A stretch of 64,000 nucleotides of DNA, from contig JAUVVY010000023.1 of the NCBI GenBank assembly GCA_030604405.1, forward strand, positions 1 to 64,000, in the 5' to 3' direction. The position numbers were made by a program, and so were the translations under genes. The DNA is from a bacterium. Its GTDB lineage: Bacteria; Armatimonadota; Zipacnadia; Zipacnadales; UBA11051. This document shows, in pieces, positions 24,379 to 48,312 of the stretch; within the stretch, counting starts at the first letter, position 1; every line of letters begins with the position of its first letter. The notes below the pieces were generated by a model. That model made no database searches. It had not been told where the DNA came from and worked only from the letters and a program-made list of their open reading frames with translations.

Positions 24379-25590
24379 CTACTTACTATCACACGTCTGA
24401 TTGAGCCTTGCCGCCACTTGCTGGCCCAGGGCATAGCACTGCGCCAGCGCGGCATCGTCAGGTACATACTTGACCATCAGGCTCGCGGCTACCAGGTCAA
24501 CTTTCATCTCTGTCAGCGTTTCTTCAATTTGTCCTACCGCCTCGCCGCTCCAGCCGTATGACCCGAAGGCCGCCCCGACGAGATTCCGTGGCTTGAGGCC
24601 TTTCAGATAAGTCAGAACGTCCGCGACCGTCGGAAATATGTTGTTATTCATCGTCGGTGAGCCGACCACGAGAGCCCGGGCATCGAGTATCTCGGTAGCC
24701 ACATCACTGCGGTGAGACGCCCGCAGTTGCATCAGCTTGGGCACTGCCCCCGCTGACCTCAGCCCTTCACCGATGGCGCGGGCCATCAGCGCTGTGCTTT
24801 GCCACATGGTATCATAGACCACCACTGCCTTCTTCGTCGGCGTCTGCTCCGCCCATTGTGCGTAAGAGCCCAGTATCTTTCCAAGGTCTTCGCGCCAGAT
24901 GGGGCCGTGATCCGGAGCGATAATATTGATATCCAGACCTAGTTCAGGCACCTGCTGCAATAGCTTGGTAACCAGTGACGACAGTGGCAGCAGGATATTG
25001 GCATAGTACTTGGCCCCCTCGTACCCCAGAATATCCTGGTCAATCTCGTCAGCAAATCGCTGACTCGAGGCCAGATGCATACCAAAGGCATCCTGCGAAA
25101 ACAGCACGCCGCCGTCGTCCAGATACGAGAACATACTATCCGGCCAGTGGAGCATACGGGTCTCGACAAAGGACAGGGACGTATTGCCCAGGCTGAGACT
25201 CTCGCCGTTCTTAGCTGCCACAATTTTGTGATCTAGACGAAAATGTTCGCCCAGGGCTTTAGCGCCCAGCGCGGACGCGAATATCTTCTCAGGTCGGACC
25301 GCCTCTATCGTCGCTGGCAAGCCCCCCGAGTGGTCCATCTCGGCATGATCAGAGACAATGTAGCTGATGTCCCCAGGATCAACCACCGCGGCGATCCGCG
25401 CGAGCATCTCCTCCACAAACGGAGCCTTGACTGTATCTATCAGGGTGATCTCATCGGCCAGAATCAGATAGGCATTGTAGGTGGTACCCCGGCTGGTCAG
25501 ATAGCCGTGGAAATCGCGCACCGACCAGTCTATCGCCCCAACCCAGTGCACGGAATCAGTTACCTGTACGGCTTCGAACGCTTGACGCAT
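24379..25590 (-). CDS. fprA: Flavodiiron protein (A-type flavoprotein, NO/O2 reductase)
   Basis: The 403-residue protein has an N-terminal metallo-beta-lactamase-like domain with the diiron motif H-x-E-x-D-H (SDHAEMDHSGGLP), a further His in LHWPDSMFSYL and IIAPDHGPIWR. A C-terminal flavodoxin domain (from about residue 255; KAVVVYDTMWQSTALMARAI, then SPTMNNNIFPTVADVLTYL) binds FMN. Such proteins take electrons from rubredoxin and reduce O2 to water or NO to N2O in the cytoplasm. GAGGTGA precedes the ATG. It is the last gene of the Rrf2-led operon, 56 bp after copA, and lies next to its presumed donor rubredoxin 2. Confidence 0.95.
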   Translation of the reverse strand: MRQAFEAVQVTDSVHWVGAIDWSVRDFHGYLTSRGTTYNAYLILADEITLIDTVKAPFVEEMLARIAAVVDPGDISYIVSDHAEMDHSGGLPATIEAVRPEKIFASALGAKALGEHFRLDHKIVAAKNGESLSLGNTSLSFVETRMLHWPDSMFSYLDDGGVLFSQDAFGMHLASSQRFADEIDQDILGYEGAKYYANILLPLSSLVTKLLQQVPELGLDINIIAPDHGPIWREDLGKILGSYAQWAEQTPTKKAVVVYDTMWQSTALMARAIGEGLRSAGAVPKLMQLRASHRSDVATEILDARALVVGSPTMNNNIFPTVADVLTYLKGLKPRNLVGAAFGSYGWSGEAVGQIEETLTEMKVDLVAASLMVKYVPDDAALAQCYALGQQVAARLNQTCDSK

Positions 25591-25646
25591 GTTGTCACCT
25601 CAAAGCATTGAATTGGAACTCATCCGGCTCAAGTGCGCCGCGCCGA

Positions 25647-27827
25647 TCATTGCTGGGCATCAGTCAGCGAGTAGCGGCGCAGGCGCAGCGAATTCGATAC
25701 CACTGACACCGAGGAAGCAGCCATCGCAGCGGCGGCAATCATCGGATTGAGTAGGCCCGCGACAGCCAGCGGGATGGCGGCGGCATTGTAGAAGAATGCC
25801 AGGAACAGGTTCTGCTTGATGTGCGCCAGCGTCCGGCGGCTGAGCAGCATGGCACGCACCACGCCCTCCGGGTCGCCGCTGACTAAGATGATCTCCCCGG
25901 CTTCTATGGCCACGTCTGTGCCCGTGCCCAGCGCTATGCCTACGTCGGCCTGCGCCAGGGCCGGCGCATCATTGATGCCATCTCCCACCATGGCGACGCG
26001 GTGGCCCTGCGCTTGAAGTTGCTTTATCTGGTCGCTTTTCTGCTCGGGCAGAACTTCGGCAAGCACGTTGCTAATGCCTAACTCCTGGGCGATAGCCTCG
26101 CCGGTGCGCCGATTGTCGCCTGTGACGAGGTAGGTATCCAGGCCCATCTGCCGCAGGCGCGAGACCGCTCGCGTTGCCCCGGGCTTGAGCGTGTCAGCCA
26201 GGGCCACCAGCCCCACCAGCCGGTCATCTCTCGCCACCAGTAAGGTCGTGTTGCCTTGTTGCTCCAGGCGGCTTTTCATCTCCTGGGCAGAAGCGGTATC
26301 CACGCCCGCCTCGTGCATCAGCCTGGTGCTGCCTACCAGAATCTGCTGCCCGTCCACCATACCTCGCACCCCAAGGCCGGGCACGGCCTCAAAGTCATCT
26401 ACTGCAGCGCTCTCGATGTTATTCTCCCTGGCCCGGGCCACGATCGCCTGCCCTAGCGGATGTTCCGAAGAATTCTCGATCGCCGCCGCCAGCCGCAGTA
26501 ATTCGTCCTCGGAGACATCGTCAGCCAGTGAGACCAAAGCGGTGACTTCGGGCTCCCCGCGAGTGAGGGTGCCGGTCTTGTCGAAAACAATGGTATCGAG
26601 GCGGCCGACCATTTCCAGAGCGCCGGCCTGCTTGATGAGGATACCGTGGTCCGCGCCCAGGCCGGTTCCCACCATCACCGCCGTCGGCGTCGCCAGTCCC
26701 AGGGCACAGGGGCAGGCGATTACCAGCACCGCCACGGCATTGACCAAGGCCCGCTCCAGCCCGGCCTCGGCCAGCACCCAACCTGCAAAGGTTAGCAGGG
26801 CAATGGCGATCACTACCGGCACAAAGTAAGCGGCAACCGTGTCGGCCAGCCGCTGAATCGGCGGCTTGGTGCCCTGTGCTTGCTCGACCAGGCGGATGAT
26901 TTGCTGCAGAGCCGTCTCACTGCCTACCCGCGTGGCCGTGAACCTGAACGTGCCGGTCTTGTTGATGGTGCCGCCAATGACCTCGTCACCTGCGCTCTTG
27001 TCAACCGGGATACTCTCACCCGTTATCATGGACTCGTCAACCGCCGAATGACCCTCGACCACCTCACCATCAACCGCAATCCTCTCGCCGGGACGAACCA
27101 CCACAACGTCACCGACCTCAACTTCCTCAACACGAACCATGACTTCATCGCCACCACGCATCACCGATGCGTGGGCCGGAGCCAGTTGCGTCAGCTTGCG
27201 GATTGCCGCGGAGGCGTGGCCTTTAGCACGGGCCTCCAGGAAGCGCCCGAGAGTGATGAGCGTGAGGATAACAGCCGCTGTGTCGTAGTAAACGTGCACC
27301 TGGCCCTGAGCGAAAAATGTGAAATAGACGCTGTAGAGATAGGCAGACGACGAGCCCATGACAATGAGCACGTCCATATTGGCACTACCGTGCTTCAGCG
27401 ACCGATAAGAGTTGCGGTAATACTGCCAGCCCAGAATAAGCTGAACCGCCGTGGCCATTGCGAACAGCACGTAAAGTCGCCCCGGAAACTCGAACCAGAC
27501 GCTAAGGATGAATAGCGGAACAGTGATAGCCGCCCCCAGCGCAAACAGCCGTCCCTGGCGGCGGATCTCAGCGGCGCGCGCCGCTTGCTGCTCGTCCTGC
27601 GGTTGCTCACCCGCGGCTTCGGCGCTGTAGCCGACAGCCTCGACAGCGGCAATAAGCTGCTTGATACTGGTCTGTGAGGGGTCGAAGGTCACCCGCGCCG
27701 TCTCGGCGGCGAAGTTGACATAGGCCTCGGCAACCCCGACCACGCGGCGAAGGGATTTCTCGACACTCTGAGCGCAAGCCGCACAGTGCATGCCGGAAAT
27801 CGCCAGGGTTACGGATTGCTCAGCCAT
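25647..27827 (-). CDS. copA: Copper-translocating P1B-type ATPase
   Basis: The 726-residue inner-membrane ATPase has one N-terminal heavy-metal-associated domain ([16 protein letters not shown]), paired transmembrane helices, the actuator loop ([12 protein letters not shown]), the CPC metal site ([17 protein letters not shown]), the phosphorylation loop ([10 protein letters not shown]), a hinge ([20 protein letters not shown]) and the C-terminal helices containing N and MxxSS signatures ([19 protein letters not shown]). It exports Cu(I). ATG 27827 is chosen because GGGAGGA lies eight bases upstream; the longer frame runs into the hcp gene. It sits between hcp and fprA, so copper export is co-expressed with NO/O2 defence. 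A C-terminal scrap of a paralogue lies at 23996. Confidence 0.95.
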
Positions 27828-27867
27828 CCGTCTCAGTCCTCCCAGAGGCCAATTCTGCGGGCCCCGT

Positions 27868-29514
27868 TCACTCTCCCAGTATAGCCTGCAAATCTTCCTG
27901 TGGAGTTGTGATGGGCATAATGTTGAACTTCTCCTTGAGTACGTCCAGCACCGGCGGCGTGACACATGCCGGCAGGCTTGGTCCCAGGCGGATGTCTCTT
28001 ATGCCCAGATGCAACAGGCTGAGCAGAATAGCGACGGCCTTCTGCTCATACCAGGAGAGGCTCAGCGACAGCGGCAGGCTGTTGACGTCGGTGTCGAAGG
28101 CCTCCGCCAACGCCTGGGCGATGAGTATCGCGGAATGAGCGTCATTGCACTGCCCGACGTCCAACAGACGGGGGATGCCGCCAATCTCGCCGAATTGCAG
28201 CTTGTTGAAGCGGTACTTGCCGCAGGCCAGGGTCAAGATTACGCAATCATCAGGCACGAGCTGGGCAAGCTCGGCGTAGTAGTTGCGGCCCGGCTTGGCC
28301 CCGTCACAGCCTCCGATGAGGAAGAAGTGGCGGATGGCGCCGGTCTTGACCGCCTCAACGATCTTGTCAGCCACATTCAGGACCGCCTTGTGTCCGAAGC
28401 CGACTACAATCGTGTTATCCGGGCCATCCTCAGTGAACCCTGCGGCTGATAGGGCTGCCTGAATAACGGGACTGAAATCACGATTGGTGATGTGGGCGAC
28501 TCCGGGCCAAGCGACCAGCCCGGTGGTGAATATCATCTCCTCATAACCGTCTCTGGGCTTCTGGATGCAGTTGGTGGTCATCAGGATCGCCCCAGGAAAG
28601 GCGTCGAACTCCTTTTGCTGGTCCTGCCACGCGCCACCGTAGTTGCCTACCAGGTGCTCGTACTTCTTCAGTTCGGGATACCCATGGGCGGGTAGCATCT
28701 CACCGTGCGTGTACACATTGATGCCTGTTCCCTGCGTCTGTTTGAGCAGTTCCTCAAGGTCCTTCAGATCGTGACCGGACACAACTATGGCCTTACCGGC
28801 AACCGGCTCAATGCGCACCGCGGTAGGCGCCGGATCGCCGTACGTACTGGTGTGGGCCTCATCCAGCAGTTCCATCACTTTCAGGTTGAGTTCTCCGACC
28901 GCCAGCGCCTTGGCCAGAAGTTCATCGGCGTTGGTTGGCTGGCCGGCCAGAAAGTCCAATGCTTCATGAAAAGACCCGTATATGTCATCATCTTCGTGGT
29001 CCAGTATCTGCGCGTGGTCGGCATACGAGGCAGCGCCCTTAAGCCCGTAGGTGATAAGCTCCTGCAGGCCCGTGACCACCTCACCGAGTGCCTCCTTGCG
29101 CTCCGTGATGCCGATTTCTTCGGCTTGCTGAAGCAGACCATCCAGGTCGTCAGCAGGAATCCACGTGCTCGGCCCCGAAAGCGTTTCGGGTGTCCGTCCC
29201 GCCTGCCGGCAGGCCTCCTCGTACATTTCACGCGCCTTATCACGCAATTGGCCCGCCCGCACCAGTAGTCCCTGCAGACGCTCGGCATCGAAGTCCACAT
29301 TGGTCACTGTCGAGAATAGAGCCTCCAGGACGAAAACATCAATGTCCCGATCCTGAGCACCCAATTGTCGGGCCCGATGCGCATACATGGACAATCCCTT
29401 AGTCGCATATATCAGCAAATCTTGCAGTGCTGCGACTTGCGGCTGCTTCCCACACACTCCCTTTACAGTGCAACCGGTTCCTTTGGCCGTCTGTTCACAT
29501 TGATAGCAAAACAT
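27868..29514 (-). CDS. hcp: Hybrid cluster protein (hydroxylamine / NO reductase)
   Basis: The 548-residue protein starts [15 protein letters not shown] and continues TVKGVCGK, the C-x2-C-x7-C-x5-C N-terminal [4Fe-4S] site of class I Hcp from strict anaerobes. Later motifs supply hybrid-cluster ligands ([61 protein letters not shown]). Hcp reduces NO to N2O and hydroxylamine to ammonia in the cytoplasm. ATG 29514 matches family starts, although the AAGGA is 13 bases away; GTG 29526 and a TTG are alternatives. It lies between the cupin and copA genes in the Rrf2-led operon. Confidence 0.95.
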
Positions 29515-29552
29515 GTTATTCAACACATCCTTCGTAGTTTGATGAACGGTAG

Positions 29553-29900
29553 TCAGGACCGAATCATGACCAGCAGCATCTTGAAGCGCTCGACCGCCGC
29601 CAGAGCGTGGGGCTTGTGGGCGGGCATTATCAGCATCTGGCCACCAGATACGCGCTGGGCCTCGCCCGCAATCGTGATCTCTACCTCGCCCTCCAAGACG
29701 TAAACCAAGGCATCGAACGGAGCAGTATGTTCGCTCAGTCCCTGCCCCTGGTCGAAGGCAAACACCGTGACCGTTCCCGTCTCCTCATCAATGACGGTTC
29801 GGCTGACCACGGCACCTTCCTGATAGTCCAGCAAGCCGGACAATTCTACCACGCACCCCACCAGGTTGATGGTATCTCTCTCACTCGCGTTACAGTTCAC
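29553..29900 (-). CDS. Small cupin-domain protein
   Basis: The 115-residue single-domain beta-barrel has cupin motif 1 (QGLSEHTAPFDALVYVLEGE) with its metal-type His and Glu, and motif 2 (GGQMLIMPAHKPHALAAVE). It is a typical stand-alone cupin_2 protein; the ligand is unknown. Cupins of this form recur beside hcp and Rrf2 genes in anaerobes, so a link to redox sensing or to metal or thiol chemistry is plausible but inferred. The start is GTG 29900 with GAGGAAGG seven bases before it. It is spaced 27 bp from the HD gene and 38 bp from hcp. Confidence 0.88.
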   Translation of the reverse strand: MNCNASERDTINLVGCVVELSGLLDYQEGAVVSRTVIDEETGTVTVFAFDQGQGLSEHTAPFDALVYVLEGEVEITIAGEAQRVSGGQMLIMPAHKPHALAAVERFKMLLVMIRS

Positions 29901-29927
29901 TGCACCTTCCTCCTTATATATCGGGCC

Positions 29928-30656
29928 TTAGTTGGCGAGCAGTTCGTAGGCCTTCTTCTTTCCGGTATCGGTACTGAATATCTTTTCGACGATCTCGGCG
30001 GGGTGCTCGCTGTCGCCGTTGGTCTGTGTTTCCAGAAGGTTGACGAGCGCATCGGCATCCCAGACGATCCTGAACTCCAAGGTGTCAACTTCATCAGACC
30101 TATGATGATTTGCGACGATATGACAGACCTGCTCAATGGTGGTCTCACCCAGGCCGATATTCGCCATGATTCGCCGTGCTATGGGCGCTCCCTCTGCCTC
30201 GTGGTGTTCCTGGTAATCACCACCGTACTTGTGTTCGGCCTCTTTGATACCAACGTCGTGGAGCAAAGCAGCAGCTATCACAACCCGGGCGTCGCCGCCC
30301 TCAGCCCTCAGCAGCTCCCGCGCGTACTCAAACACCAGCAGGGCATGAGCGATGCGCTTGTAGTCGTTGGCGAATTGGCTTTTCATCGCCGCGATAAGCT
30401 GCTCGGTCAGCGGCCCTTCTTCGTTGTCTGGCAGCGCCTGTTCGGGGCCAAAGCCCAGACATTCCTCGGCGTACGCACACCATTGCGCACAACCCAGTTC
30501 CAAGCGCGGGTTCCTGAAGGTATATCCACAGTTCTGACACGTCCGCTTGCTGTCGGTCTTCAGGAATTCGACGGCCGTGTCGCATACCGGGCAAGGCAAG
30601 TTGAAGATATCGTCAGGCTTCCAGTACCGGGTATCCTGCCCCGGGCATTTCAGCAT
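29928..30656 (-). CDS. HD-domain phosphohydrolase with N-terminal zinc ribbon
   Basis: The product is 242 residues. The first 65 residues hold two CxxC knuckles (LPCPVCDTA and RTCQNCGYTF), which look like a zinc ribbon. From about residue 95 an HD domain follows, with HALLVFEYARELL, IAAALLHDVGIKEAEH and VCHIVANHHRSDE, supplying the His, His-Asp, His-His and Asp metal ligands (late Asp in RIVWDADALVNLL). HD proteins hydrolyse phosphoesters such as nucleotides; the substrate here is unknown. AGGAGG lies nine bases upstream of ATG 30656, inside the end of the ferredoxin-type gene (44-bp overlap), which suggests coupled translation. Confidence 0.85.
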   Translation of the reverse strand: MLKCPGQDTRYWKPDDIFNLPCPVCDTAVEFLKTDSKRTCQNCGYTFRNPRLELGCAQWCAYAEECLGFGPEQALPDNEEGPLTEQLIAAMKSQFANDYKRIAHALLVFEYARELLRAEGGDARVVIAAALLHDVGIKEAEHKYGGDYQEHHEAEGAPIARRIMANIGLGETTIEQVCHIVANHHRSDEVDTLEFRIVWDADALVNLLETQTNGDSEHPAEIVEKIFSTDTGKKKAYELLAN

Positions 30657-31431
30657 GGCCTTTTGCCTCCTGATCGTCGAGTTGAGTGGTCTCCAGCACC
30701 TCGCCGCGGACGCCGACCTTGGTCACGCTCAACGGTATTTGCTTGCCCGAGTCCGCCAGTGCCAACTCTACCAGACGCACCAGCCCGAAACAGCACGGCA
30801 CTTCCATGTGCAGTATGTCCACGGAGCGGATGTCGTTCGCCGTGAAGATCTGGGCCAGTTTCTGCCGGTAGAACTGTGCATCATCGAGTTTGGGGCAGCC
30901 GACCACAAGTACGCGCGACGTCAGGAAACGCTCGTGAAAGTCGGGATAGGCAAAGGGCACACAGTCCGCGGCAATCAGCAGCCGTGCCCCCTGGAAATAC
31001 GGAGCCTGCTCGGGAACCAGGCTAAGCTGCACCGGCCAGTTGCACAGCCTGGACGAAGATGGCTGATGCTCCTGGCATGCGGCGGCCCGTTCGTCCGCAG
31101 AAGGTTGGTTCAGCGTAAAGGCGGCCACCCCGGGGCAGCCAGCAGCGGGCGCAGCGGCAGGACATTGGGACGGCTGGTCTGCGGCCTGCTCCGCCACATG
31201 TCGCTCGACCGCCGCTTCGTCGAATTGCTCCGCGATCCGCTCCTCAGTGGTTATCGCCCCCTGGGGGCACTCGCCCAGGCACGCGCCCAGCCCGTCGCAG
31301 TACTGCTCACTAACCAGGCGCGCCTTGCCGTCAACTATCTGAAGCGCCCCCTCGACGCACGCCGGCACACATTGCCCGCAGCCGTCGCACCTCTCTTCAT
31401 CAATCGTGATTATCTTTCTCACATTCTTCAT
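30613..31431 (-). CDS. 4Fe-4S ferredoxin-type protein
   Basis: The 272-residue protein opens with a C-x2-C-x2-C-x3-C [4Fe-4S] motif (CDGCGQCVPACVEGALQI), then a second site of the CDGLGACLGECPQGAI type, which has three Cys in this family. A Cys- and Ala-rich linker (QPSQCPAAAPAAGCPG) leads to a globular C-terminal domain (LIAADCVPFAYPDFHERFL, LVVGCPKLDDAQFY, EVPCCFGLVRLVELAL). The family is widespread in anaerobes; a redox or sensing role is likely but unproven. ATG 31431 has GGAGGG eight bases upstream, whereas the frame extends to 31452. The gene overlaps both its neighbours, so the first genes of the operon are translationally linked. Confidence 0.88.
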   Translation of the reverse strand: MKNVRKIITIDEERCDGCGQCVPACVEGALQIVDGKARLVSEQYCDGLGACLGECPQGAITTEERIAEQFDEAAVERHVAEQAADQPSQCPAAAPAAGCPGVAAFTLNQPSADERAAACQEHQPSSSRLCNWPVQLSLVPEQAPYFQGARLLIAADCVPFAYPDFHERFLTSRVLVVGCPKLDDAQFYRQKLAQIFTANDIRSVDILHMEVPCCFGLVRLVELALADSGKQIPLSVTKVGVRGEVLETTQLDDQEAKGHAEMPGAGYPVLEA

Positions 31432-31852
31432 CTTGTGTCCCTCCATAGACATCGGTCAAGTCGCTAAGACTCGTGCCTGCCAGGTATTCTCGTGTCTGCC
31501 GGTTGATCACGGCCAGTAGGCCGCCGAGGATGCACTTGTCACCCCTGCAAATTGGTATGCCCAGCAGACAATGGGTAGGCATAAGCTCACCCTCAATTGC
31601 TTGATACACTTCGAGCAGATTGATTTGCTCACCGGGTCTTTCCAACTTGAAGCCACCCCTCGGCCCGCGAGTTGAGGCCACCAGTCCGACTTTCGCCAGA
31701 CGCTGCATTACCTTGGAGAGATGCGCCTGCGAAACCTGGAGGGTCGCGGCGATCGCTCTAGTTGAGAGCACTTCATCCTCATTGGCCGCCAACAGTACCA
31801 TGCTGTGCAGCGCTAATGAGGCCGCGTCAGATATTCTCAGTACGTTGTTCAT
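31400..31852 (-). CDS. Rrf2-family Fe-S transcriptional regulator
   Basis: The 150-residue regulator has the Rrf2 winged helix (LHSMVLLAANEDEVLSTRAI, then LQVSQAHLSKVMQRLAKVGL and STRGPRGGFKL, the wing motif). A three-cysteine cluster-binding loop CLLGIPICRGDKC (C-x6-C-x4-C) is spaced as in NsrR/IscR-type proteins that bind [2Fe-2S] or [4Fe-4S]. It should sense NO, oxygen or iron state and control the operon it heads (hcp, copA and fprA downstream). A consensus promoter and a palindrome lie directly upstream. Whether it is functionally NsrR-like or IscR-like cannot be told from sequence alone. Confidence 0.92.
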   Translation of the reverse strand: MNNVLRISDAASLALHSMVLLAANEDEVLSTRAIAATLQVSQAHLSKVMQRLAKVGLVASTRGPRGGFKLERPGEQINLLEVYQAIEGELMPTHCLLGIPICRGDKCILGGLLAVINRQTREYLAGTSLSDLTDVYGGTQDEECEKDNHD

Positions 31853-31887: not shown

Positions 31888-31915
31888 ATTATATCACGTT
31901 GTCCAAGAATGTCAA
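31888..31915 (-). promoter_or_regulatory. Consensus sigma-70 promoter of the Rrf2-hcp-copA-fprA operon
   Basis: On the minus strand, TTGACA (31915-31910) and TATAAT (31893-31888) are both perfect and 16 bp apart. Such a strong promoter normally needs repression, consistent with the palindrome just downstream. Confidence 0.8.
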
Positions 31916-31931: not shown

Positions 31932-32126
31932 GGTGCGAGTTTAGATTGTCGGTAAATGGGAAAAGAGCCCGCCCAGGCTGGTAGGCCGATGCCAGCCATT
32001 GGCGGTATTGTAGGGGCGCAATTCATTGCGCCCAGTCAGCAGCCGCGTGCAGGGCGTGATAAATCACGCCCCTACGAACGGCCACAGCCGGCCTTTTGTG
32101 ACCTACCGACAATCTAAACTCGCACC
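31932..32126. mobile_element. 195-bp MITE-like element with perfect 23-bp terminal inverted repeats
   Basis: The left end (31932-31954) and right end (32104-32126) are exact reverse complements over 23 bp. Inside are two perfect 9-bp hairpins, GGGCGCAAT/ATTGCGCCC (32014-32033) and GGGCGTGAT/ATCACGCCC (32052-32071). Their outer GTAGGGG and CCCCTAC (32010-32016 and 32069-32075) also pair, so the whole unit can fold as a branched cruciform. It has no coding capacity. No clear target duplication flanks it beyond a possible TGC. The rest of 31853-32417 holds the Rrf2 promoter and a 290-bp leader of the sigma-like gene, with no other gene. Confidence 0.75.
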
Positions 32127-32417
32127 TGCGCCAGCGGCTTTTCCTCCCGCAAGAGTTCCAATACTGTCTTGGCCTTGAAGGCCGCCGTACACGTCCTGCG
32201 CTCGGTCATGCGAGCTATGGTATCCCATTGCTGTTGTGCCGTCCACTATAATATGCCGTGTGTCCCGTTGCTGCACACATTCTTTGGGGACGCCTGGCAT
32301 CAAGTTCTCTTGTTGAAAGTAAGCCTGAGGGAATTTCGTTTACCTGTAGCGTAGGTTGTGCTACTATCAGTCATCAGACAAGATATTGCTCCAACTTGAT
32401 GACGGGGAAGACCGAAC

Positions 32418-33734
32418 ATGGCGCAACCTAGCGACGCTGTCCCTGAGGTGTGGGAGCAAAGGCTTGCAAGCCTTCGGCAGCGTCTGAAGAGACGTATTCA
32501 GAACAAGTTCTACAACATGCTGCCAGCCTGGGAACAGCTCAGTGGAGACCTCGACGATCTATTGAGTGAGGTTGAAATGGCATTCTTGAAATCCACCAGA
32601 GCCGGTAAGTTCACGCATGACGCAGAGGATGGGATGCTTCTCGCGTGGCTGCAAACGGTAGCTGGCAACAAGCTCAAGGATGTGTACAGGAAATGGCAGA
32701 AAAGGGGCGCCAACGCCAGGCTGGACGCGAGGAGCAAGCAAACCGGACTCTCGTTGGCAGAATCGCTAGCCGGCCCGGGCGGTGTCGAAAAGGAAGCAGA
32801 ATCGAAGATTATCTGCCGTGAAGTCTGGGAGATTGGAGAGCGAGCTTTCCTGGACTACGACGTTGGTGAGCCGGATTTGGCCCGCCTGCAACGCCTTGCT
32901 GTGAGATTGGTATTCATGGACGGGAACCCAATACTGGATGTAGCCACAGCGGTCCGATGCCGACTTTCTGTCGCCGAGAGTGTGCAACCCTCGCATGTCG
33001 AGGAAGTGAAGGAGTTCGTGTGCGACGGATCAACTATTCGCCACGTAATTGTTGCAGAGATCATTAACGCGGACTATAGAGACGATACAGATGACGAAGA
33101 AACCGGGGACCATGCAGCAGTGCCCCTGCATCAGAGAATCGCAGACAAGGCAAAGCAGGTGACTGATACTGTAGTAGCAAACGCCGCCAAATGCTGCGGT
33201 TTGGAGAAGTTTGCTGCGGCCGATATTATTACATCTCGTAGTGCTCGCTATCTGGCTCTGCGCCTGCACCTCAACGGCCTGGGGCACACCGAGGTCTGCA
33301 AGGCGGTAGCCAAGATAGGCAGGCACTGCGGTCTCGAATGCTCTCCAAGCGCGGTCAACAACTGGCTCAGCTACAGCCACGGTAGTAGCGCGTGGCGGAT
33401 CCTGGCTGACGCACTTGTACGCGAGGGTTTCGAGTCCGTATTGGTGCAGCTTGTTGATGCTCTCGTGCACGAGCAAGGTGATGTGCTTGCGCACGAATTT
33501 GACCTCAACAGCGCCGACATAAGCTTGCAAGAGCTCCGAGACCTTCTGGCGTTGTACTACGGTGGCAAGCTTGAGGAGTATGCCTTCAAATCACCAGGAG
33601 AAAAGGTAAGGATTCTGGCGTTGGTTGAAGCAGCGCACGAATTGCTGGTCGGGATGGTGACAGACAGATTGGCCGAACATCTTGGCAAGGAAAGGCCCAG
33701 CGATGCCAACGCGGAGGAGATGAAAACAAAGTGA
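32418..33734 (+). CDS. Sigma-70 region-2-like protein with C-terminal HTH-like segment
   Basis: The product is 438 residues. Residues 40-105 resemble ECF sigma region 2: DLDDLLSEVEMAFLKSTRAG, then EDGMLLAWLQTVAGNKLKDV and YRKWQKRG, matching the D-L-x-Q-E-V-F...W-L-x-T-I-A-x-N-x-L-x-D pattern. No normal region 4 follows. Instead, a helix-turn-helix-like stretch (LNGLGHTEVCKAVAKIGRHC, then SPSAVNNWLSYS) lies near residue 290-325, in a protein twice the usual ECF length. It may recruit RNA polymerase or simply bind DNA. The start is ATG 32418 with a weak GGGGAAG. It overlaps the next gene by the 4-base GTGA. Confidence 0.55.
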   Translation: MAQPSDAVPEVWEQRLASLRQRLKRRIQNKFYNMLPAWEQLSGDLDDLLSEVEMAFLKSTRAGKFTHDAEDGMLLAWLQTVAGNKLKDVYRKWQKRGANARLDARSKQTGLSLAESLAGPGGVEKEAESKIICREVWEIGERAFLDYDVGEPDLARLQRLAVRLVFMDGNPILDVATAVRCRLSVAESVQPSHVEEVKEFVCDGSTIRHVIVAEIINADYRDDTDDEETGDHAAVPLHQRIADKAKQVTDTVVANAAKCCGLEKFAAADIITSRSARYLALRLHLNGLGHTEVCKAVAKIGRHCGLECSPSAVNNWLSYSHGSSAWRILADALVREGFESVLVQLVDALVHEQGDVLAHEFDLNSADISLQELRDLLALYYGGKLEEYAFKSPGEKVRILALVEAAHELLVGMVTDRLAEHLGKERPSDANAEEMKTK

Positions 33735-34474
33735 ACGAACAAGGGGCCGCAAGACCTGCGGAACTTGTGGAAATGCTGGAGGCTGTATTAGGGCTGGATG
33801 CTGCGCAGGAGCAGGAACGGATAGGTCAACTGCGCCAGCGTCTGGACCCCTCGATAATGTTGCCTCTGATGAAGCTGCACGTACTCGACCTGCTCCCCCC
33901 TGAACTGGAAGCATTCGTTGAGGCGCGGTTGGAAGTTAATGCCGAGGACCGCCGCTTGTTTTTCGAAGTATCCCTGGCCTACCAGAACGGCAAACGCGAG
34001 GTGGAATGGGCGCAGTTCGCCGAGTTGCTAAGCGAAGAGGCGTTGCGCCGACTGATGGCCCCGATGCTGATGGCTTATGTACTGACAAAGAGGCAAACAG
34101 TGCGGCCCAGAGGCCCGGCGAGGCGAACAGGTGGCAACGTCCTGGCCGAGATTCCCATCCTGAATGCTGCCGCCGAAGAGCTCGGCAGGGCAGATGTGGT
34201 GCTACCGCGTCCCGAATGCGATGCACAAGGCGAGTGTACAGTCAACATCCGGCTACCGGCGCTGCCGTCGCCATGGCAAGAAGCAATGGATGAGGGCACA
34301 GTGGCGCTAAGAATGAGTCTGGCCGGAGGATGGCTGGACGTCCCGCTACATGTGGCCAAGGTAAGTGCCCTGGAGCCATCCGGGACACACGCTACGGGTT
34401 GCATCTGTCTTGGTGATGACAAGCGTGGCTACGAGCTTAACCTGCAGAATTGTCACGTGGTGTTGCTCGTCTGA
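33731..34474 (+). CDS. Unrecognised acidic protein coupled to the sigma-like gene
   Basis: The protein is 247 residues, starting at GTG 33731 within the upstream stop (GTGA overlap), so translation is coupled. The N-terminal half is helical (LVEMLEAVLGLDAAQEQERI, FFEVSLAYQNGKREVEWAQF); the C-terminal half looks beta-rich (ECTVNIRLPALPS, GTVALRMSLAGGWLDVPLHV). There is no membrane helix and no zinc anti-sigma motif (HxxxCxxC). Given its position it could be an anti-sigma or adaptor partner, but I do not recognise the family. Its 3' end overlaps the convergent CHAT gene by 38 bp. Confidence 0.6.
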   Translation: MNEQGAARPAELVEMLEAVLGLDAAQEQERIGQLRQRLDPSIMLPLMKLHVLDLLPPELEAFVEARLEVNAEDRRLFFEVSLAYQNGKREVEWAQFAELLSEEALRRLMAPMLMAYVLTKRQTVRPRGPARRTGGNVLAEIPILNAAAEELGRADVVLPRPECDAQGECTVNIRLPALPSPWQEAMDEGTVALRMSLAGGWLDVPLHVAKVSALEPSGTHATGCICLGDDKRGYELNLQNCHVVLLV

Positions 34475-36596
34475 CAAGCCAAACCCCGACCACCATCAGT
34501 GCGAGCCCGACAAGACCAACCAGCACCGAAATAGTAATAACCTGCGAACGAGGCCTGTAGTCGCGAGCGCACCTGAAGCCGACGTTGTCGTACCGCGAAG
34601 TACGGCTGCACTGCTCGCGGTTGAAGACAATAGCTTCAAGCAACCCTGATGTGTACGAGCCCCCGCAGGCGACAGGCATACCTTCAGGCCCGCTGGCGAA
34701 TTCGCTTACGTTGCCCGCAGTACAGTGCAGTCTCAAGGCGTTCAGCTCATTGGCATCTACCGCAATGAGTTTCGCATCGTTGGGCCTTGGCCAATAGAAC
34801 AAGGTGTTGGCTTTCCTGGTGTCGGGCTCGTTGCCCCAGGGGTATAGTTGCTGTTTGCCGGCCGCAGCGGCATACTGCCATTCGCCATAGGTGGCCAGCC
34901 GCTTCTTCGCCCAGGATGCGTATCTCTCAGCTTCCTGGTATGAGATATAGGTGACAGGCAGCTTCTCCTGACCGGCCGGGCAGGTCCTGTTTTCCCACCC
35001 CGGCGGTGCCGTATAGTCTGTTCTTGCAGCCAATAAGCACTGATACTCCTCGTTCGATACCTCACACTTGTCAATCAGGAAAGCGGATATGGCAACGGTG
35101 TGCGGCGTAAGCTCTTTCAGTCGCAAGGCAACAGCTTGCATGCCAATCCATACAGCATCTACTGCCTCCTCGATGTCATCGTCTGAGCCGCCTGTATCTT
35201 TCGACAGCTCTATTATCCAAGGACGCAGGTGGTCTTCGGCCAGTTGGGCGGCTGTGTTTGCTTGCTCAAAGAAGAGAGCGTTGTCGAAACAGCCAACAAC
35301 ATAAGAGGGAGTAGCAGGGACGAGGACCATGTCGGCCGTGATCCGCCTTTCGACGATACCCCAAGCCAGTGCAGCAAGCACGATCAGCATCCCCAAGAAA
35401 GCAGCGATCGTACCGATTGTCTTGTGACGCGCCGGTGGGGGAGGGGGAGTGGGTTGGGGAGGAGCTGGAGGGGGGGTAGTGGGCTTCGGCGCCGGCTGGC
35501 TTGCGACTATTTGCAAGTAGCTCTCCTGCGTCCCGGTAGTCATGACGATCGGGCTGATCCATGAAACAGGATCGTCGCTTGCCTGCCCCTGCATCTTGTA
35601 CCTGGCCTGGCTTACTGCCGTATCAACGGGTTCGCTGCCCGCGATGAGCGGATAGAAGGCACGGGAAAACGTAGCGGCCCTGTTGTCGTCAACCTCGAAC
35701 AGGAACCCAACTGCCACAGGCGTACTGCTATTGACCAAACTGATTGCCGGCGAGTGATAAACGCCGGGAACTGCAAGACTCCAACAGGCAGGGAGCATCA
35801 GCAGATGCGGCCAAAGCCCTGCTGTCCTGAAGATTTCATTGAGCACAGAGGGTTCTGCGGCTAGAGCCTGTTGCGCAGGGTCTTCCATGACGAGTCTGGG
35901 CTTACCATCTCGGTCAAGAAAACCATGGGTGATCAGGTGCAGGACGTGTGGCTTGAATTCCTGAATTGCCTGGCAAATTTTCGCTTGCTCGGCACGGACA
36001 TCTTGAACGACCACATTGTCGGCACTCTCTATTGCGTCTGTCTCGTTGACGATACTGAGACGACCTAGATCAGGCGGTACTTCCAGGTCCGCAGGGCTGT
36101 ACAGATCGGTCGGATCCGCATAGGCAATAAGGACTCGCAAACATTCGTAAACAGGGGCTCTGGGAGTGGGTTGCACCGAGGAAACAATTCTTACAATGCC
36201 CCGCTCAGGCGCTGTGAATACATATTCACCAGTGACGCTGTGTTCCGCGAGGAACGCTGCTTCCCACGGCAGATGCCACAAGCGGGGCTGGTTCGACTCA
36301 ATTTCCAGTTGAACTCTAAGGCGGGGCAATACACCTGGGGACGAGCCACGATCAATGTAGGTCTCCCATCTTGACCAATCGGGCTCGAGCAGGATCTCAA
36401 AGAGCAATTGCCCCAGTTCTCGGACATTCTCGGCTGTGGCCTTCCGCTGACCAGCAAGTTCTGCCAGTACTTCGGACCTGTCGAGTTTGCTCTGTTCGAT
36501 AACAGAGGGGGCCTGCGGGCTGCCGTCTGCGTAAGACGAGCGCAGGAACACATCACTACTATCCTGGTTCAGTCCGACACGCAGTGAAAATGGCAC
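34437..36596 (-). CDS. CHAT protease - TM - formylglycine-generating-enzyme-fold fusion - TM
   Basis: The protein is 719 residues. Residues 90-350 form a CHAT (caspase-like) domain with the His in LHLITHGF (His224) and the Cys in LLMLPACWSL (Cys271), both where the catalytic dyad lies. A proline-rich linker precedes TM1 (about 393-416; IGTIAAFLGMLIVLAALAWG). Residues 424-678 are an FGE/SUMF1 fold: FLIDKCEVSNEEY, LPVTYISYQEAERYASW, ATYGEWQYAAAAG, YPWGNEP, GNVSEFASG and NVGFRCARD. True FGE needs a Cys pair that I do not see, so this domain may bind a ligand rather than oxidise Cys. TM2 is at about 685-708. GGAGG lies six bases before GTG 36596. Confidence 0.85.
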   Translation of the reverse strand: MPFSLRVGLNQDSSDVFLRSSYADGSPQAPSVIEQSKLDRSEVLAELAGQRKATAENVRELGQLLFEILLEPDWSRWETYIDRGSSPGVLPRLRVQLEIESNQPRLWHLPWEAAFLAEHSVTGEYVFTAPERGIVRIVSSVQPTPRAPVYECLRVLIAYADPTDLYSPADLEVPPDLGRLSIVNETDAIESADNVVVQDVRAEQAKICQAIQEFKPHVLHLITHGFLDRDGKPRLVMEDPAQQALAAEPSVLNEIFRTAGLWPHLLMLPACWSLAVPGVYHSPAISLVNSSTPVAVGFLFEVDDNRAATFSRAFYPLIAGSEPVDTAVSQARYKMQGQASDDPVSWISPIVMTTGTQESYLQIVASQPAPKPTTPPPAPPQPTPPPPPARHKTIGTIAAFLGMLIVLAALAWGIVERRITADMVLVPATPSYVVGCFDNALFFEQANTAAQLAEDHLRPWIIELSKDTGGSDDDIEEAVDAVWIGMQAVALRLKELTPHTVAISAFLIDKCEVSNEEYQCLLAARTDYTAPPGWENRTCPAGQEKLPVTYISYQEAERYASWAKKRLATYGEWQYAAAAGKQQLYPWGNEPDTRKANTLFYWPRPNDAKLIAVDANELNALRLHCTAGNVSEFASGPEGMPVACGGSYTSGLLEAIVFNREQCSRTSRYDNVGFRCARDYRPRSQVITISVLVGLVGLALMVVGVWLVRRATPRDNSAG

Positions 36597-37048
36597 GTGA
36601 AACCTCCGGACAGCTAACCGCCGCAGGCAGGTGTCTTTGCGCGAAGCCGTGCCAGATCGAAAGACATGAACGTCTGCCTATGTCAAGCCCTATACGGGCC
36701 GACGCACCACAACGCAACCCCGGTGCACGGGCAGCACTGTTCGCGCATGATGGATTATAGCGGTTTGCAACAATCCGCGCAAGCACTTGCCGCCGCCAGC
36801 ACTACATATAGATTTGCGCTCCTCAATGTGCCGGGCGGACCGCGCTGTAAGTCTCTGTTAACAGGCCAACAGCACTCCGTGTCGCTCGGCCATACGCCCC
36901 GTGCCAGAGAATAATACGTCCGGTCGTGAAAGGATTGCATCAGAACAAAGGTTAGTTGTAACAGAAGTATCGTATAGAGATGTCCCATGCCATTTCCGAT
37001 CTTCACGATCTAGCTACATGCCAAACAGACTGGCAAGGAGTGAGCAAA
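36597..37048. other. Divergent control region of the CHAT gene and the envelope operon
   Basis: This 452-bp spacer separates the minus-strand CHAT-FGE gene from the plus-strand seven-gene operon. It must hold both promoters, but I find no pair of consensus boxes. TTGACA occurs on the minus strand near 36684-36689, without a matching -10. No small gene is convincing; an in-frame ATG at 36980 could extend the next protein. Confidence 0.4.
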
Positions 37049-38044
37049 GTGTTGCAAATAGGCGAGTATCAGATCACTGGCGCCGGGATCGTATGGGGCG
37101 CCGCCGTAGTACTGGTGGTATTATGGGCTGGCTGCGCCGTGCTTGCCCGGCTATGGTACCACTATTTTCAGCGAGGGCGAGTATTCCCAAGCCCGCATTT
37201 TGCAAATGTAGTCGAAGGATGGGCCAAAGGTCTGCGCCAGGCGGGAGAAAGCGCCTGGGACCAGCGCCCTGATCTGTTGGAGAGGTGGACGGGCCTGATC
37301 ATCGGCACAGCACTATCTGTGGTCGCCGCCGGAGTCATTCTCTTCAACCTCAACATAACTAGCCGCATCTTCGATTTCATACTTGGGAGCTCATTTGCCG
37401 AGACCGTCGAAGTGATACTGCCGATAATCGGCGTAGCCAACGAAGTGAGCAGAAACGCGTATGTAATGGCCATAGTCTTTGTCTCCATTCTCTGTGGCCT
37501 CGGGATAGTCTTGTTCGGGCTGTGTCCCGGTCTGCTGCAAGCGCTAACCGGAGAACGTGCAGACCGCACGCCCATGAGCCGCGGGCAGAAGTGGCTGTTG
37601 GCTGGTGTCGTCGCATTACTAACTGTAGCAGTGTTTTTCGAGGCGGGCATGAATTACCTGCAGGCCGACATAGGCGAAGAAGCGACCGCTCTGATGGCCG
37701 GGTGCGCCGCGCTTGTCGGCTTCCTGGTGCCGCTCGGGGAAGCCATATTCAGTGGTATCGCCTGGCACGCACTGATCGCCCCGGCCACCAAGTACCTGTT
37801 GTTGGTGCTGATGGCGGCGGTGTATAGAATATCATCGGGTCTGCTGTCGGTGCTTGGGTATCCGCACGCTGACATCAGGGTGGCTGCCGTCGTCGCGGGG
37901 AAACTCAACTCCGCCGGCAGCGAACTCAATGACGCATACCGACGCCTGCGGCGGATCGCAGACCAGGCTTTGGTGTTGCCTGCGGTCCGCGACAACGAGG
38001 TGCTAGCTAAGCTGCTCAGCGATATCCGCACGATGTACGATTGA
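37049..38044 (+). CDS. Polytopic membrane protein, first gene of the envelope operon
   Basis: The 331-residue protein has about six membrane segments: VWGAAVVLVVLWAGCAVLA, LIIGTALSVVAAGVILFNL, YVMAIVFVSILCGLGIVLFG, WLLAGVVALLTVAVFFEAG, LMAGCAALVGFLVPLGEAIF and KYLLLVLMAAVYRISSGLLS. A cytoplasmic helical tail follows (LNSAGSELNDAYRRLRRIAD). No known family is evident. GTG 37049 is preferred since AAGGAG lies eight bases upstream; ATG 36980 would add 23 polar residues. It may form a membrane scaffold with the TolQ/ExbD-like pair encoded at the other end of the operon. Confidence 0.75.
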   Translation: MLQIGEYQITGAGIVWGAAVVLVVLWAGCAVLARLWYHYFQRGRVFPSPHFANVVEGWAKGLRQAGESAWDQRPDLLERWTGLIIGTALSVVAAGVILFNLNITSRIFDFILGSSFAETVEVILPIIGVANEVSRNAYVMAIVFVSILCGLGIVLFGLCPGLLQALTGERADRTPMSRGQKWLLAGVVALLTVAVFFEAGMNYLQADIGEEATALMAGCAALVGFLVPLGEAIFSGIAWHALIAPATKYLLLVLMAAVYRISSGLLSVLGYPHADIRVAAVVAGKLNSAGSELNDAYRRLRRIADQALVLPAVRDNEVLAKLLSDIRTMYD

Positions 38045-38095
38045 CGACAACACCGTCAGACCTCCATGATCTCACAGCAACAAGGGGTGTGAACT

Positions 38096-39424
38096 ATGAG
38101 TAACAGCAATGCGCAAAGGCAAGTCAATCTCTCCCAGGAAGCTGAAAGCGACGGTTGTGCCACTATGCCCACTGTTGCGGCCGGTGTCGCCGCGACAAGC
38201 CGACAGTCACGGCCAAGAGAGTACCAAGATGAGCAAGATGTCGGCACGCGGCAGTCCGACGCAGACGACTTCGAGAGCGTGCCGGAGCCGCCAGTGCTCG
38301 GAGCCGATGAGGACCTGGGGGACTTGATGGAGAGCTTCCCGGGAGACAGGCAGCAGGAAAAAACCAAACTCGAGACCCTCTTCAAGGGCATGAACAACGC
38401 GTGTAAGACGTGGTGCGAAAATGCGCGCAAGATCACGGTAGAATACAGAGCTCTCGTCGGGACGCTGACGCAACTGCAGAGGTATCACCGCGCCGACAGG
38501 GAGAGCCGGCTCTGGGCCGCAATATTGTGGTCGCTGGGTGGGATGGTGGCAAGCGCAGGTGCCGGTGCACTCCTCATGGCGCTCGGCTACATCATAGAGC
38601 CGGTCTTCTGGGTGCTGCTCTATGCTGCTGGCCTGAGCATCGGGCTCGCAACCTTCCTGGTCGCATTCAAGCCGAGGCGAACTGTGCCGCCGCCAAGCAT
38701 TGTCCAGTACGGCACCAGGCTGAAGTTGTTCCGCAATGCCATCAAAGCCCACCGACGTGACATGAACAAGATGAGCCGGCAGATGCGCGCCAGTGCAGGT
38801 GCTATCAAGCGGCAGTTGAAGCAACTGGTGCGGAAGCCGGAGCGCACGGTAAATGGCCGAAAAACGCATGCGCCTGTTCTGGTCAATACTCAGGCCGAAG
38901 CGGCACAGTATCTTCACAAGATGAGTGCACTGGCCGGCCAGGTTCTGGTGAGCCTGGAGACTGACAGCCAGCTCGACCACGCCATCAGCGAACTAGGAGA
39001 GGTTGACGCGACCAGCCCGGCTGCCAGTGTGGATTTCGTGATAACCGACGCATTGGGCAACAGGACCGGCTACTCCGCTACCGGGCTGGGCAGCGCCAGG
39101 CGACACATGAGCAGCCAGGCCAGCGATTTGGAGATGGCCTGTGACACGATACGGGAGGAACTGGCGAAGCTCATCATGTCGCAAGCTGAAAGCAGCAGCA
39201 ACGGCGCTTCGTCGCAACCGGCAGAAGCTGCACCCCAGCCGCACCAGGCCGGTACTATTGACGAGCCCGTTGTACAGCAACTGCTCACGCACATAGACGG
39301 GGCCATCTTGCAGGTGCAGAACTATCGCGACAACTGCGTCGCCGTGCTCAGGAGTTTTGAAAGCCTCGACAAGGCACTGCGTCAACAGCATTCCAGCCTC
39401 AAGAAACAGAACCGGTGGGTCTAG
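38096..39424 (+). CDS. Coiled-coil protein with a two-helix membrane hairpin
   Basis: The product is 442 residues. The first 100 residues are polar and low-complexity, followed by a helical segment (LETLFKGMNNACKTWCENAR, VEYRALVGTLTQLQRYHRAD). A membrane hairpin is at about residues 141-190 (LWAAILWSLGGMVASAGAGA, then VFWVLLYAAGLSIGLATFLV). A long helical C-terminus (HRRDMNKMSRQMRASAGAIK, then MACDTIREELAKLIMSQAES) is probably coiled coil. Both large soluble parts should face the same side. No family is recognised. AAGGGG lies upstream of the ATG. It is 51 bp from the previous gene, so co-transcribed. Confidence 0.72.
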   Translation: MSNSNAQRQVNLSQEAESDGCATMPTVAAGVAATSRQSRPREYQDEQDVGTRQSDADDFESVPEPPVLGADEDLGDLMESFPGDRQQEKTKLETLFKGMNNACKTWCENARKITVEYRALVGTLTQLQRYHRADRESRLWAAILWSLGGMVASAGAGALLMALGYIIEPVFWVLLYAAGLSIGLATFLVAFKPRRTVPPPSIVQYGTRLKLFRNAIKAHRRDMNKMSRQMRASAGAIKRQLKQLVRKPERTVNGRKTHAPVLVNTQAEAAQYLHKMSALAGQVLVSLETDSQLDHAISELGEVDATSPAASVDFVITDALGNRTGYSATGLGSARRHMSSQASDLEMACDTIREELAKLIMSQAESSSNGASSQPAEAAPQPHQAGTIDEPVVQQLLTHIDGAILQVQNYRDNCVAVLRSFESLDKALRQQHSSLKKQNRWV

Positions 39425-39490
39425 AGCACCTCGTAATTGACTGTTAGTGTCGTTGCCACCGATTATCTGACTGAAGAAAGGAGCAACACC

Positions 39491-40231
39491 ATGAGCTACT
39501 CTAGAATCATCAAATGGGAAATTCGCCTTGCAGCGGCAGCAGTCCTGGCTATTGGAGTCCTCGTACAGGGAGGATGTGGCAAAACAGCCCAATCTCAGCC
39601 TCAGCCCCAACAGCGACAGTTCATAGCTGTGTTGATAGACGGCACCGGCTTCGCCGAGCGCTACTGGGAGCCGAGCCTGGAAACGGCAACTCTGCTGCTC
39701 AAGAACGTGGTGACTCCCAAGAGCATAGTCTGTGTCATGAAGATTGATGATTACAGCTACGAGGAAGACAACGTTCTGCTGGGGCCCAAGTCAATGCCGG
39801 CTGGGGGGCTCAGATTGAAAGTAACGATCAACAAGTTCAATGAACAAGTGGCCGCTCTGCAGGCGCCTGAGCAGATCAAGCCGGGCACTGACATTGATGG
39901 CGCCCTGCACATGCTCGGCGATTACCTGGCCAAGTGGCCTGACGCGTGGCTCAATTTGCTGGTCTTTTCGGACCTGGTTGAGGAATATGAACCTGCAGGG
40001 CGGCTTGGCTCGGCCCGGAGGCTGCCGGAGCTGAGCCGGGTTGTCAGCTTCTTTGTCGCCTATGGGGCGAGTGAGGGTGAATACAAACAGCGACAAGAAA
40101 GCTGGAAGAGGGCAATGGCTGAATACGGTGTGGATGGCAGCGAGGTGTCCTTCTTTGATCCGCAGGAATCGCTGGCGGAGAATCTGCCAGCAGAGTTCGT
40201 GCGAGATTTCTGCCGCCCCCCGGCAAATTGA
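39491..40231 (+). CDS. vWA-like lipoprotein
   Basis: The 246-residue protein has a signal sequence (IRLAAAAVLAIGVLVQGGC) ending in a plausible lipobox Cys, so it is likely anchored to a membrane on the periplasmic side. The mature part starts with a Gln/Pro tether and then QFIAVLIDGTGFAERYW, a strand ending in Asp-Gly-Thr like the MIDAS first motif D-x-[ST]-x-[ST] in altered form. PGTDIDGALHMLGDYLAKW and LNLLVFSDLVEEYEPAG resemble the later vWA T-D and D motifs. Metal binding may be partial. AAAGGAG lies seven bases before ATG 39491. vWA proteins often accompany TolQ/ExbD-like and FGE-like genes. Confidence 0.7.
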   Translation: MSYSRIIKWEIRLAAAAVLAIGVLVQGGCGKTAQSQPQPQQRQFIAVLIDGTGFAERYWEPSLETATLLLKNVVTPKSIVCVMKIDDYSYEEDNVLLGPKSMPAGGLRLKVTINKFNEQVAALQAPEQIKPGTDIDGALHMLGDYLAKWPDAWLNLLVFSDLVEEYEPAGRLGSARRLPELSRVVSFFVAYGASEGEYKQRQESWKRAMAEYGVDGSEVSFFDPQESLAENLPAEFVRDFCRPPAN

Positions 40232-46794: not shown

Positions 46795-48312
46795 TCAGTC
46801 AGCAGGCTTCGGCGACTGGGGACTATGACACGTCACCCTCACTCCGCGCCCCCGCAATGTCTGGATGTCCTGGCTGGCTTGCGAGCTCTTGCCTAAGTCC
46901 AGCCGGTTGTTCGACAGCAGCACCGTATCCTGTTCGCCAAGACCCGCGTTAGCGACCAGTGGCCCGATATCGCTTATCTGGTTGCGATCCAGGTAGAGCT
47001 TTTGCAGCTTCGTCAAACCAGTCAGGGGTCGCAGGTCGCTGTTCTGGTTCAGTGACAGGTATAGTTCTCGTAGCTTGGTAAGCCCGGCCAAAGGCTGCAG
47101 GTCGCTGAGTTGATTGCCCGAGAGCCACAGGTACAGCAGGTGGGTCAGACCGGCGAGAGGTGCTGCGTCCCGGATCTGGTTCTGCCACAGTTCCAGATAG
47201 TGCAGGTTGGTCATATTCGCCAGAGGCTGCACATTCCTGATCTGATTCTCAGAAAGCGTCAGGTAGCGCAGCTTGGTCAGACCGGCGAGCGTTTGAATAT
47301 CAGTGATGCGGTTACCGCGCAGGCCCAGATACTCCAGACTGGTAAGGCCAGCTAGAGGCTGCAGGTCACTGATCTGGTTCAGCGACAGGTAGAGCCTCTG
47401 CAGCTTAGTCAGGCCTGCTAGAGCCTGCACGTCAGTGATCTGGTTGCGCTTCAGCCAGAGTTCTCGCAGGTTGGTGAGGCCGGCGAGTGGCTGCAGGTCG
47501 GAGACGCAGTTCTCCGCAAGCCAAAGCTCTTGCAGCTTGGTCAGCCCGGCTAGAGGCTGCAGGTCGCTCACTTGGTTGCGGCTCAGGTGCAGTGTTACAA
47601 GATCCGTCAGACCAGCCAGAGGGCCGAGGTCGCTGACGTGATTGTCACCGATCCCCAGATAGTCCAGATGAATGAGCCCGGCAAGATCCTGCAGGTCGCT
47701 GATCTGGTTGCGCGACAGGGCGAGTCCTCGCAGCTCAGTGAGAGTGCTCAGCGGCTGCAGGTCGTTGATCTGATTGTTATCCAGGTACAGGTGTTGTAGG
47801 TTGGTCAGACGAGCCAGGGGCACCAAGTCACTGATCTGATTGTCGCCCAGGTGGAGAGAGCGCAAGTTGATGAGACCGGCCAGAGGCTGTACGTCGGTGA
47901 GGTCGTGCCATCTGAGATTGAGATGCTGTAACTTGCTTAGCCCGGCTAGTGGCTGCAAGTCGGTGATCCGGTTCCCGCGCAGGCCAAGATACTGCAGGTT
48001 GGCAAGTCCGCTCAGGGGCTGCAGGTCGCAGATACAGTTGTCCCCAAGCCGAAGTTTTTGCAGGTTGGCGCAATATTGCAGCCCGGACAGATTGGCTACG
48101 CCACACTTCGACGCATACAGCCGGGTAAGTCGCGCCAACTCTGAGGGGACGATCGCACCTGCAGGCTTCCCTATCGCGTCCCGTACCACTCGTTCCAGGT
48201 TGGGATCCGCGAAGCTAACCGTCGCCTCCTGGGCCGCGGCGTTGGCCGCCCACACCGGCAGCACGCATATCACGCTCAGCAAGGCAAGTCCGAGGCCAAG
48301 AAAATGTCCCAT
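46795..48312 (-). CDS. Secreted leucine-rich-repeat protein (internalin-like, 17 repeats)
   Basis: The 505-residue protein has a signal peptide (LGLALLSVICVLPVWAANAA) and the usual cap (FADPNLERVVRDAIGKPAGA, then SELARLTRLYASKCGV). Seventeen tandem 22-residue repeats follow, of the form L-x-x-L-x-L-x-x-N-x-I-[ST]-D-[LV]-Q-P-L-A-G-L-T-x, the bacterial SDS22/internalin type. A short C-terminal cap ends it (LLSNNRLDLGKSSQASQDIQ). There is no sortase or membrane anchor, so it is periplasmic or secreted. Such proteins bind other proteins; the target is unknown. GGGGAGAG precedes the ATG. Repeats are close to 66 bp each. Confidence 0.92.
   Translation of the reverse strand: MGHFLGLGLALLSVICVLPVWAANAAAQEATVSFADPNLERVVRDAIGKPAGAIVPSELARLTRLYASKCGVANLSGLQYCANLQKLRLGDNCICDLQPLSGLANLQYLGLRGNRITDLQPLAGLSKLQHLNLRWHDLTDVQPLAGLINLRSLHLGDNQISDLVPLARLTNLQHLYLDNNQINDLQPLSTLTELRGLALSRNQISDLQDLAGLIHLDYLGIGDNHVSDLGPLAGLTDLVTLHLSRNQVSDLQPLAGLTKLQELWLAENCVSDLQPLAGLTNLRELWLKRNQITDVQALAGLTKLQRLYLSLNQISDLQPLAGLTSLEYLGLRGNRITDIQTLAGLTKLRYLTLSENQIRNVQPLANMTNLHYLELWQNQIRDAAPLAGLTHLLYLWLSGNQLSDLQPLAGLTKLRELYLSLNQNSDLRPLTGLTKLQKLYLDRNQISDIGPLVANAGLGEQDTVLLSNNRLDLGKSSQASQDIQTLRGRGVRVTCHSPQSPKPAD
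46920..48110 (-). repeat. Tandem 66-bp coding repeats of the LRR gene
   Basis: The DNA repeats in 66-bp units (plus-strand cores such as GGCTGCAGGTC and CTGATCTGGTT recur about every 66 bases). It follows the protein LRR period exactly, so it is a coding repeat prone to unit gain or loss, not a CRISPR array. Confidence 0.8.

Follow-up and report, generated by a model that had tools for sequence, protein, structure and literature searches.

Bacterial MITEs are defined as non-coding, multi-copy elements of 70-300 bp with ends of 15-30 bp and a parent insertion sequence (IS) in the same genome (PMC3733652). GTAG REP sequences carry a GTAG tag, a stem of 5-13 bp and a loop of 2-20 nt, are present in many copies and form HH/TT dimers (PMC3733652). 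Guerillot et al. (PMC3942029) describe insertions of TnGBS, ISLre2 and some ISKra4-group elements as lying 13-17 bp upstream of sigma-A promoters, with such promoters on both sides where the repeats are nearly perfect. No ISKra4-derived or promoter-targeting MITE was found in the literature searched. The element described here is best read as a non-autonomous, promoter-targeted MITE that is mobilised by an ISKra4 (Mutator-like DDE) transposase encoded on contig C61, and that has later lost its target duplication at this particular copy; the probability of this reading is estimated at close to nine in ten.

The element, its relatives and a parent insertion sequence

The element occupies positions 31932-32126 (195 bp, non-coding, no strand assigned) of the window, meaning the whole 64,000-nt stretch of DNA that was analysed. 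Arm comparison defines a left terminal inverted repeat, GGTGCGAGTTTAGATTGTCGGTA (31932-31954, plus strand), which is complementary at 23/23 nt to the right terminal inverted repeat (32104-32126, minus strand); the extended arms reach 34 nt at 85%. The preliminary description had called this a MITE-like element with perfect 23-bp ends, no coding capacity and two internal 9-bp hairpins, and in all of this it was accurate: the element is short, has terminal inverted repeats and contains no ORF of ≥80 aa, the hairpins are present at 32010-32033 and 32052-32075, and, as described below, it is multi-copy with a parent transposase in the genome. Folding is very stable compared with shuffled sequences (z = -11.6 as RNA, -10.0 as DNA). 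The outermost G that is present in nearly all other copies is missing at both ends of the window copy, and the left and right sub-terminal sequences differ in type. No further match to the element end occurs within the window, and shuffles likewise gave 0.

Across the genome (G000; 4.37 Mb in 96 contigs), the first 21 bp of the end were found 25 times at ≤3 mismatches, compared with 0 for a reversed-pattern control, and both this copy number and the transposase-gene count given below may be too low, as many contigs end within or beside copies. The several copies proposed in the preliminary description are thus present, and the many copies rule out a single-copy palindrome or attenuator. The opposite outcome, one copy and no transposase, was also looked for and is not what the genome shows. 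The predicted parent transposase is an intact 439-aa ORF lying inside matching ends in a 1457-bp IS (G000:C61:148632-150088). It matches the NCBIfam ISKra4 model NF033572 (E=1e-86, 291.7 bits, cut-off 205) and has a DDE triad (LDG, GDGA, VEAACK) that was aligned with ISKra4-like homologues from the order, most of which retain the D, D and E positions. It is the sole gene of this kind in the assembly, and a scan of the genome collection for close transposases gave a best relative of 38%, with nothing closer. G001, a sister species of the same genus, holds 19 family ends, and a search there for an ISKra4-type transposase gave no match.

Immediately beside the parent IS on C61 is a 503-bp MITE, the two lying head to tail (G000:C61:148119-150088; L054 2120-4089) with about 10 nt between their ends. 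The flank of a related end at C16:99298 has a match to this spacer, and CYGGCAGG is common to the outer flanks. The pair resembles a composite or a circle-junction product that was transposed in one piece, and the 10-nt spacer between inverted repeats may hint, suggestively at most, at a circular transposition intermediate. The C16 element itself also occurs in a genome of another family (G026:C207; L084/L120), with flanks about 91% identical to those in G000; the explanation is either a transfer or the mis-binning of a contig.

Direct repeats of 7-10 bp flank 11 of the 17 complete elements in G000 and G001, two of them with one mismatch. The target duplications anticipated in the preliminary description were accordingly seen at most sister copies, and not at the window copy. 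They mostly adjoin the extra outer G, so that the end is best written GGGTGCGAGTTTAGATTGTCGG. The element at C90:5035-5270 has the duplication ATAATCGCCG, and G001 holds the same site uninterrupted (92% identity), the flank alignments being contiguous with an overlap of 6 bp, ATAATC. At C33 the insertion is common to G000 and G001 with flanks about 93-94% identical, and some insertions are therefore older than the species split. The copies of the end, a parent IS with the same ends, the duplications at sister copies and the one empty site together identify the window element as a MITE.

Promoters beside family members

To the left of the element is a sigma-70 promoter, TTGACA-16-TATAAT (31888-31915, minus strand), with a 12/12 match to consensus. 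It belongs to a gene for an Rrf2-family regulator (31400-31852, minus strand), the first gene of an hcp / flavodiiron-type stress cluster. The element had previously been placed 17 bp from the -35 box; the closeness is real, but the exact distance between TTGACA and the left end is 16 nt.

For each of the 47 readable ends, the flank pointing away from the element was scored with a sigma-70 matrix, which is generic and not trained on the host. The mean promoter score is maximal at an offset of 16, the commonest distance in the family as a whole, and the peak is visible in both G000 and G001. A promoter-like site scoring above threshold begins 13-18 nt outward from 17 of the 47 ends (36%), while six control windows of equal width gave 0, 2, 2, 1, 1 and 0 of 47 (≤4%), and shuffled flanks gave a mean of 0.49 and a maximum of 3 ends with a site at 13-18 nt. 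The binomial P for this enrichment is about 6e-17 if ends are taken as independent; some are orthologous, and the true value is weaker. The promoter-targeting subgroup is characterised by a sigma-A promoter 13-17 bp away at >20% of sites, and the corresponding figure here is the 36% at 13-18 nt. Many of these promoters read into ORFs ≤130 nt away, several of which by eye resemble IleRS, UvrA, YajC and TatA, in addition to Rrf2, and some elements, such as that on C90, have a promoter at each end. At about 60% of ends the fixed distance holds no promoter-like site; targeting is therefore either a preference or involves many promoters that fall below the matrix threshold. Given the family-wide offset, a location beside the Rrf2 promoter is the expected place for the window element, and its spacing from the -35 box very likely reflects the targeting rule.

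The wider surroundings are varied. The nitrosative/oxidative stress cluster (24379-31852) is largely syntenic in G001 and encodes the Rrf2 regulator, a ferredoxin-type protein, an HD-domain protein, a cupin, a hybrid cluster protein (Hcp), a copper-type P-ATPase and a flavodiiron-like protein. To the right of the element lies a candidate system (32418-40231) that includes a weakly sigma-factor-like protein, a CHAT + FGE-sulfatase protein and several proteins with no Pfam match above threshold; no DNA match to 32127-35500 was found in four genomes of the same genus. Further along, at 46976-47975, is a repeat array with a 66-nt period and copies that are 60-70% identical.

Inner GTAG palindromes

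The two inner hairpins form a REPIN/BIME-like pair. Palindrome 1 (32010-32033, plus strand) consists of GTAG followed by GGGCGCAAT-TC-ATTGCGCCC, with a 9-bp stem and a 2-nt loop, and palindrome 2 (32052-32075, minus strand), GGGCGTGAT-AA-ATCACGCCC followed by CTAC, is inverted relative to it. The sequence GTAGGGGCGCAATTCATTGCGCCC has 38 near-copies in the genome at ≤3 mismatches, and among the copies read most have no family end nearby. The hairpins have the tag, stem, loop, copy number and dimer arrangement of GTAG REP sequences and, since they also occur alone, the nested hairpins of the preliminary description represent a second repeat type carried within the first. One RAYT gene was detected in the genome (NF047646, E=2e-31), and it is followed by at least five tandem REPs of the GTAGGGCGCGGGCTTGTACCGCGCC type (G000:C2, L074 1189-2123). 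A cognate RAYT flanked by the inner-hairpin REP was not found, the REP beside the genome's one RAYT being related but having a different stem.

The RAYT gene with its REP array, and the two GTAG palindromes inside the element, would fit a history in which a RAYT mobilised the whole 195 bp as a REP element, with no DDE-transposon MITE involved. However, 23-bp ends, 8-10-bp duplications and a matching ISKra4 transposase, all seen in this family, are not features of RAYT elements, and such a REP pair is missing from several members of the family, which makes this origin scarcely credible; it was rejected for the outer element and is valid for the inner pair only.

History of the window copy and comparison with known systems

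At the window copy itself no target duplication was found, and an imperfect one, TGCGCGATG/TGCGCCAGC, was judged too weak. On the left, homology to the G001 Rrf2 upstream region extends as far as 31927. The right flank (32127-32237, minus strand) is, as judged by eye, an N-terminal fragment of an IS3-type orfA (MTERRTCTAAFKAKTVLELLREEKPLA) that is severed exactly at the MITE, and it shares 80-82% DNA identity over 110 bp with two G008 loci, one of which continues as MTKRKMYTAAFKAKVVLEFLRDEESLTQVAAEYEVPPRYL. A profile search with 28 aa of the fragment gave no match, the frame used being other than the orfA frame. The flanks are therefore of different origin, and this, together with the missing duplication, marks the window copy as a rearrangement or adjacent-deletion junction. 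The G001 locus is also rearranged, with the Rrf2 operon followed by a family member and then glyA. This G001 element was rejected as an ortholog of the window copy, since it lies about 50 bp past the end of homology, has another interior and carries its own duplication, CTCCCCGA, and so represents an independent insertion. A reading of the Rrf2-glyA adjacency as a traceable MITE-mediated exchange was likewise discarded: in G000 glyA is on C55, and no MITE is present in the roughly 2 kb read upstream of it.

How the junction arose can be explained in more than one way. If a member of the same MITE family had originally inserted into an IS3 orfA, a later deletion or recombination could have brought it next to Rrf2 by accident, and the missing duplication, the orfA sequence reaching to the last base of the right flank and the different flank origins all agree with such a history. 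It is nevertheless unlikely, because the 16-nt interval is the modal distance of the family, which a random junction would rarely give, and because the promoter is a 12/12 consensus match. Considerably more plausible, though still somewhat short of even odds, is that the window copy is a hybrid: a MITE upstream of Rrf2 would have undergone homologous recombination with a second one inside an IS3 copy, and each half would have kept one original flank. Inter-element recombination is, with adjacent deletion, the usual cause of absent duplications (PMC11708052), and a hybrid would account for the unrelated flanks and the two sub-terminal types. The right-hand module (32030-32126, plus strand; part of the REP, GAACRGCCACAGCCGGCCTTTTGTGACCTA and the terminal repeat) is 91-96% identical to copies on contigs C27, C77, C58 and C57, with which the left half is not shared, and this favours a hybrid without proving it. 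The reciprocal product was not found among the ends read, in an assembly that breaks at many copies. Recombination of this kind is compatible with promoter-targeted insertion, and addresses only how the duplication was lost.

A different question is whether the element acts on its neighbours. An effect on the expression of either one, as raised in the preliminary description, is at most a possibility. A functional role as regulator of the Rrf2 operon or the downstream genes, whether as insulator, terminator or UP-element donor, might be suggested by the very stable fold and by the junction directly upstream of the promoter. Such a role appears distinctly improbable: G001 keeps the same Rrf2 promoter without the window element, and no outward promoter from the element was found. 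The core Rrf2 promoter is intact beside it, and the default, neutral reading is that the element landed where harm is small. A broader proposal, that the family inherited the promoter-seeking of ISKra4 and repeatedly brings strong REP hairpins to a fixed point just upstream of housekeeping and stress promoters as possible standard insulators or supercoiling elements, is a doubtful one.

Returning to the ISKra4-mobilised, promoter-targeted MITE, we infer mobilisation in trans, promoter recognition as the cause of placement, and a particular order of events at the window copy. The C61 IS transposase would act in trans on the shared end and insert copies about 16 nt upstream of sigma-70 -35 boxes, duplicating 8-10 bp of target. 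The window copy would have inserted ahead of the Rrf2 promoter, its inner GTAG REP hairpins riding as cargo, and a later rearrangement or adjacent deletion would have fused its right end to the IS3 fragment, so that the duplication was lost. A plain MITE call thereby becomes a mechanistic statement, in which the promoter-side place follows the insertion rule of the parent transposase. The family also offers a small, naturally occurring collection of insertions close to promoters, and the sister species supplies an unoccupied promoter; together they could be used to ask whether an insertion just upstream of a -35 box leaves the host unaffected, and to predict the transcription starts of a host for which expression data are lacking.

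Among known systems, bacterial MITEs such as RUP, NEMIS, Nezha and Bcr1 share the defining features of the window element. Its inner palindromes resemble GTAG REPs and REPINs associated with RAYT, in that they begin with GTAG, have a stem of 9 and a loop of 2, form inverted pairs and are present in many copies, but the REP around the genome's RAYT has another stem sequence, and here the REP pair sits inside a DDE-type MITE. TnGBS and ISLre2 likewise lie upstream of sigma-A promoters, at 15-17 bp (PMC3942029), but their transposase family differs, as the C61 transposase scores 70.8 with the ISLre2 model (cut-off 200). With the ISKra4 family (p-MULT 4; Mutator-like DDE), the difference is that the window copy has no transposase gene of its own; the likeness extends to a parent transposase above the NCBIfam cut-off, nearly perfect ends, duplications of 8-10 bp and, following the published rule (PMC3942029), promoters 13-18 nt outside either end.
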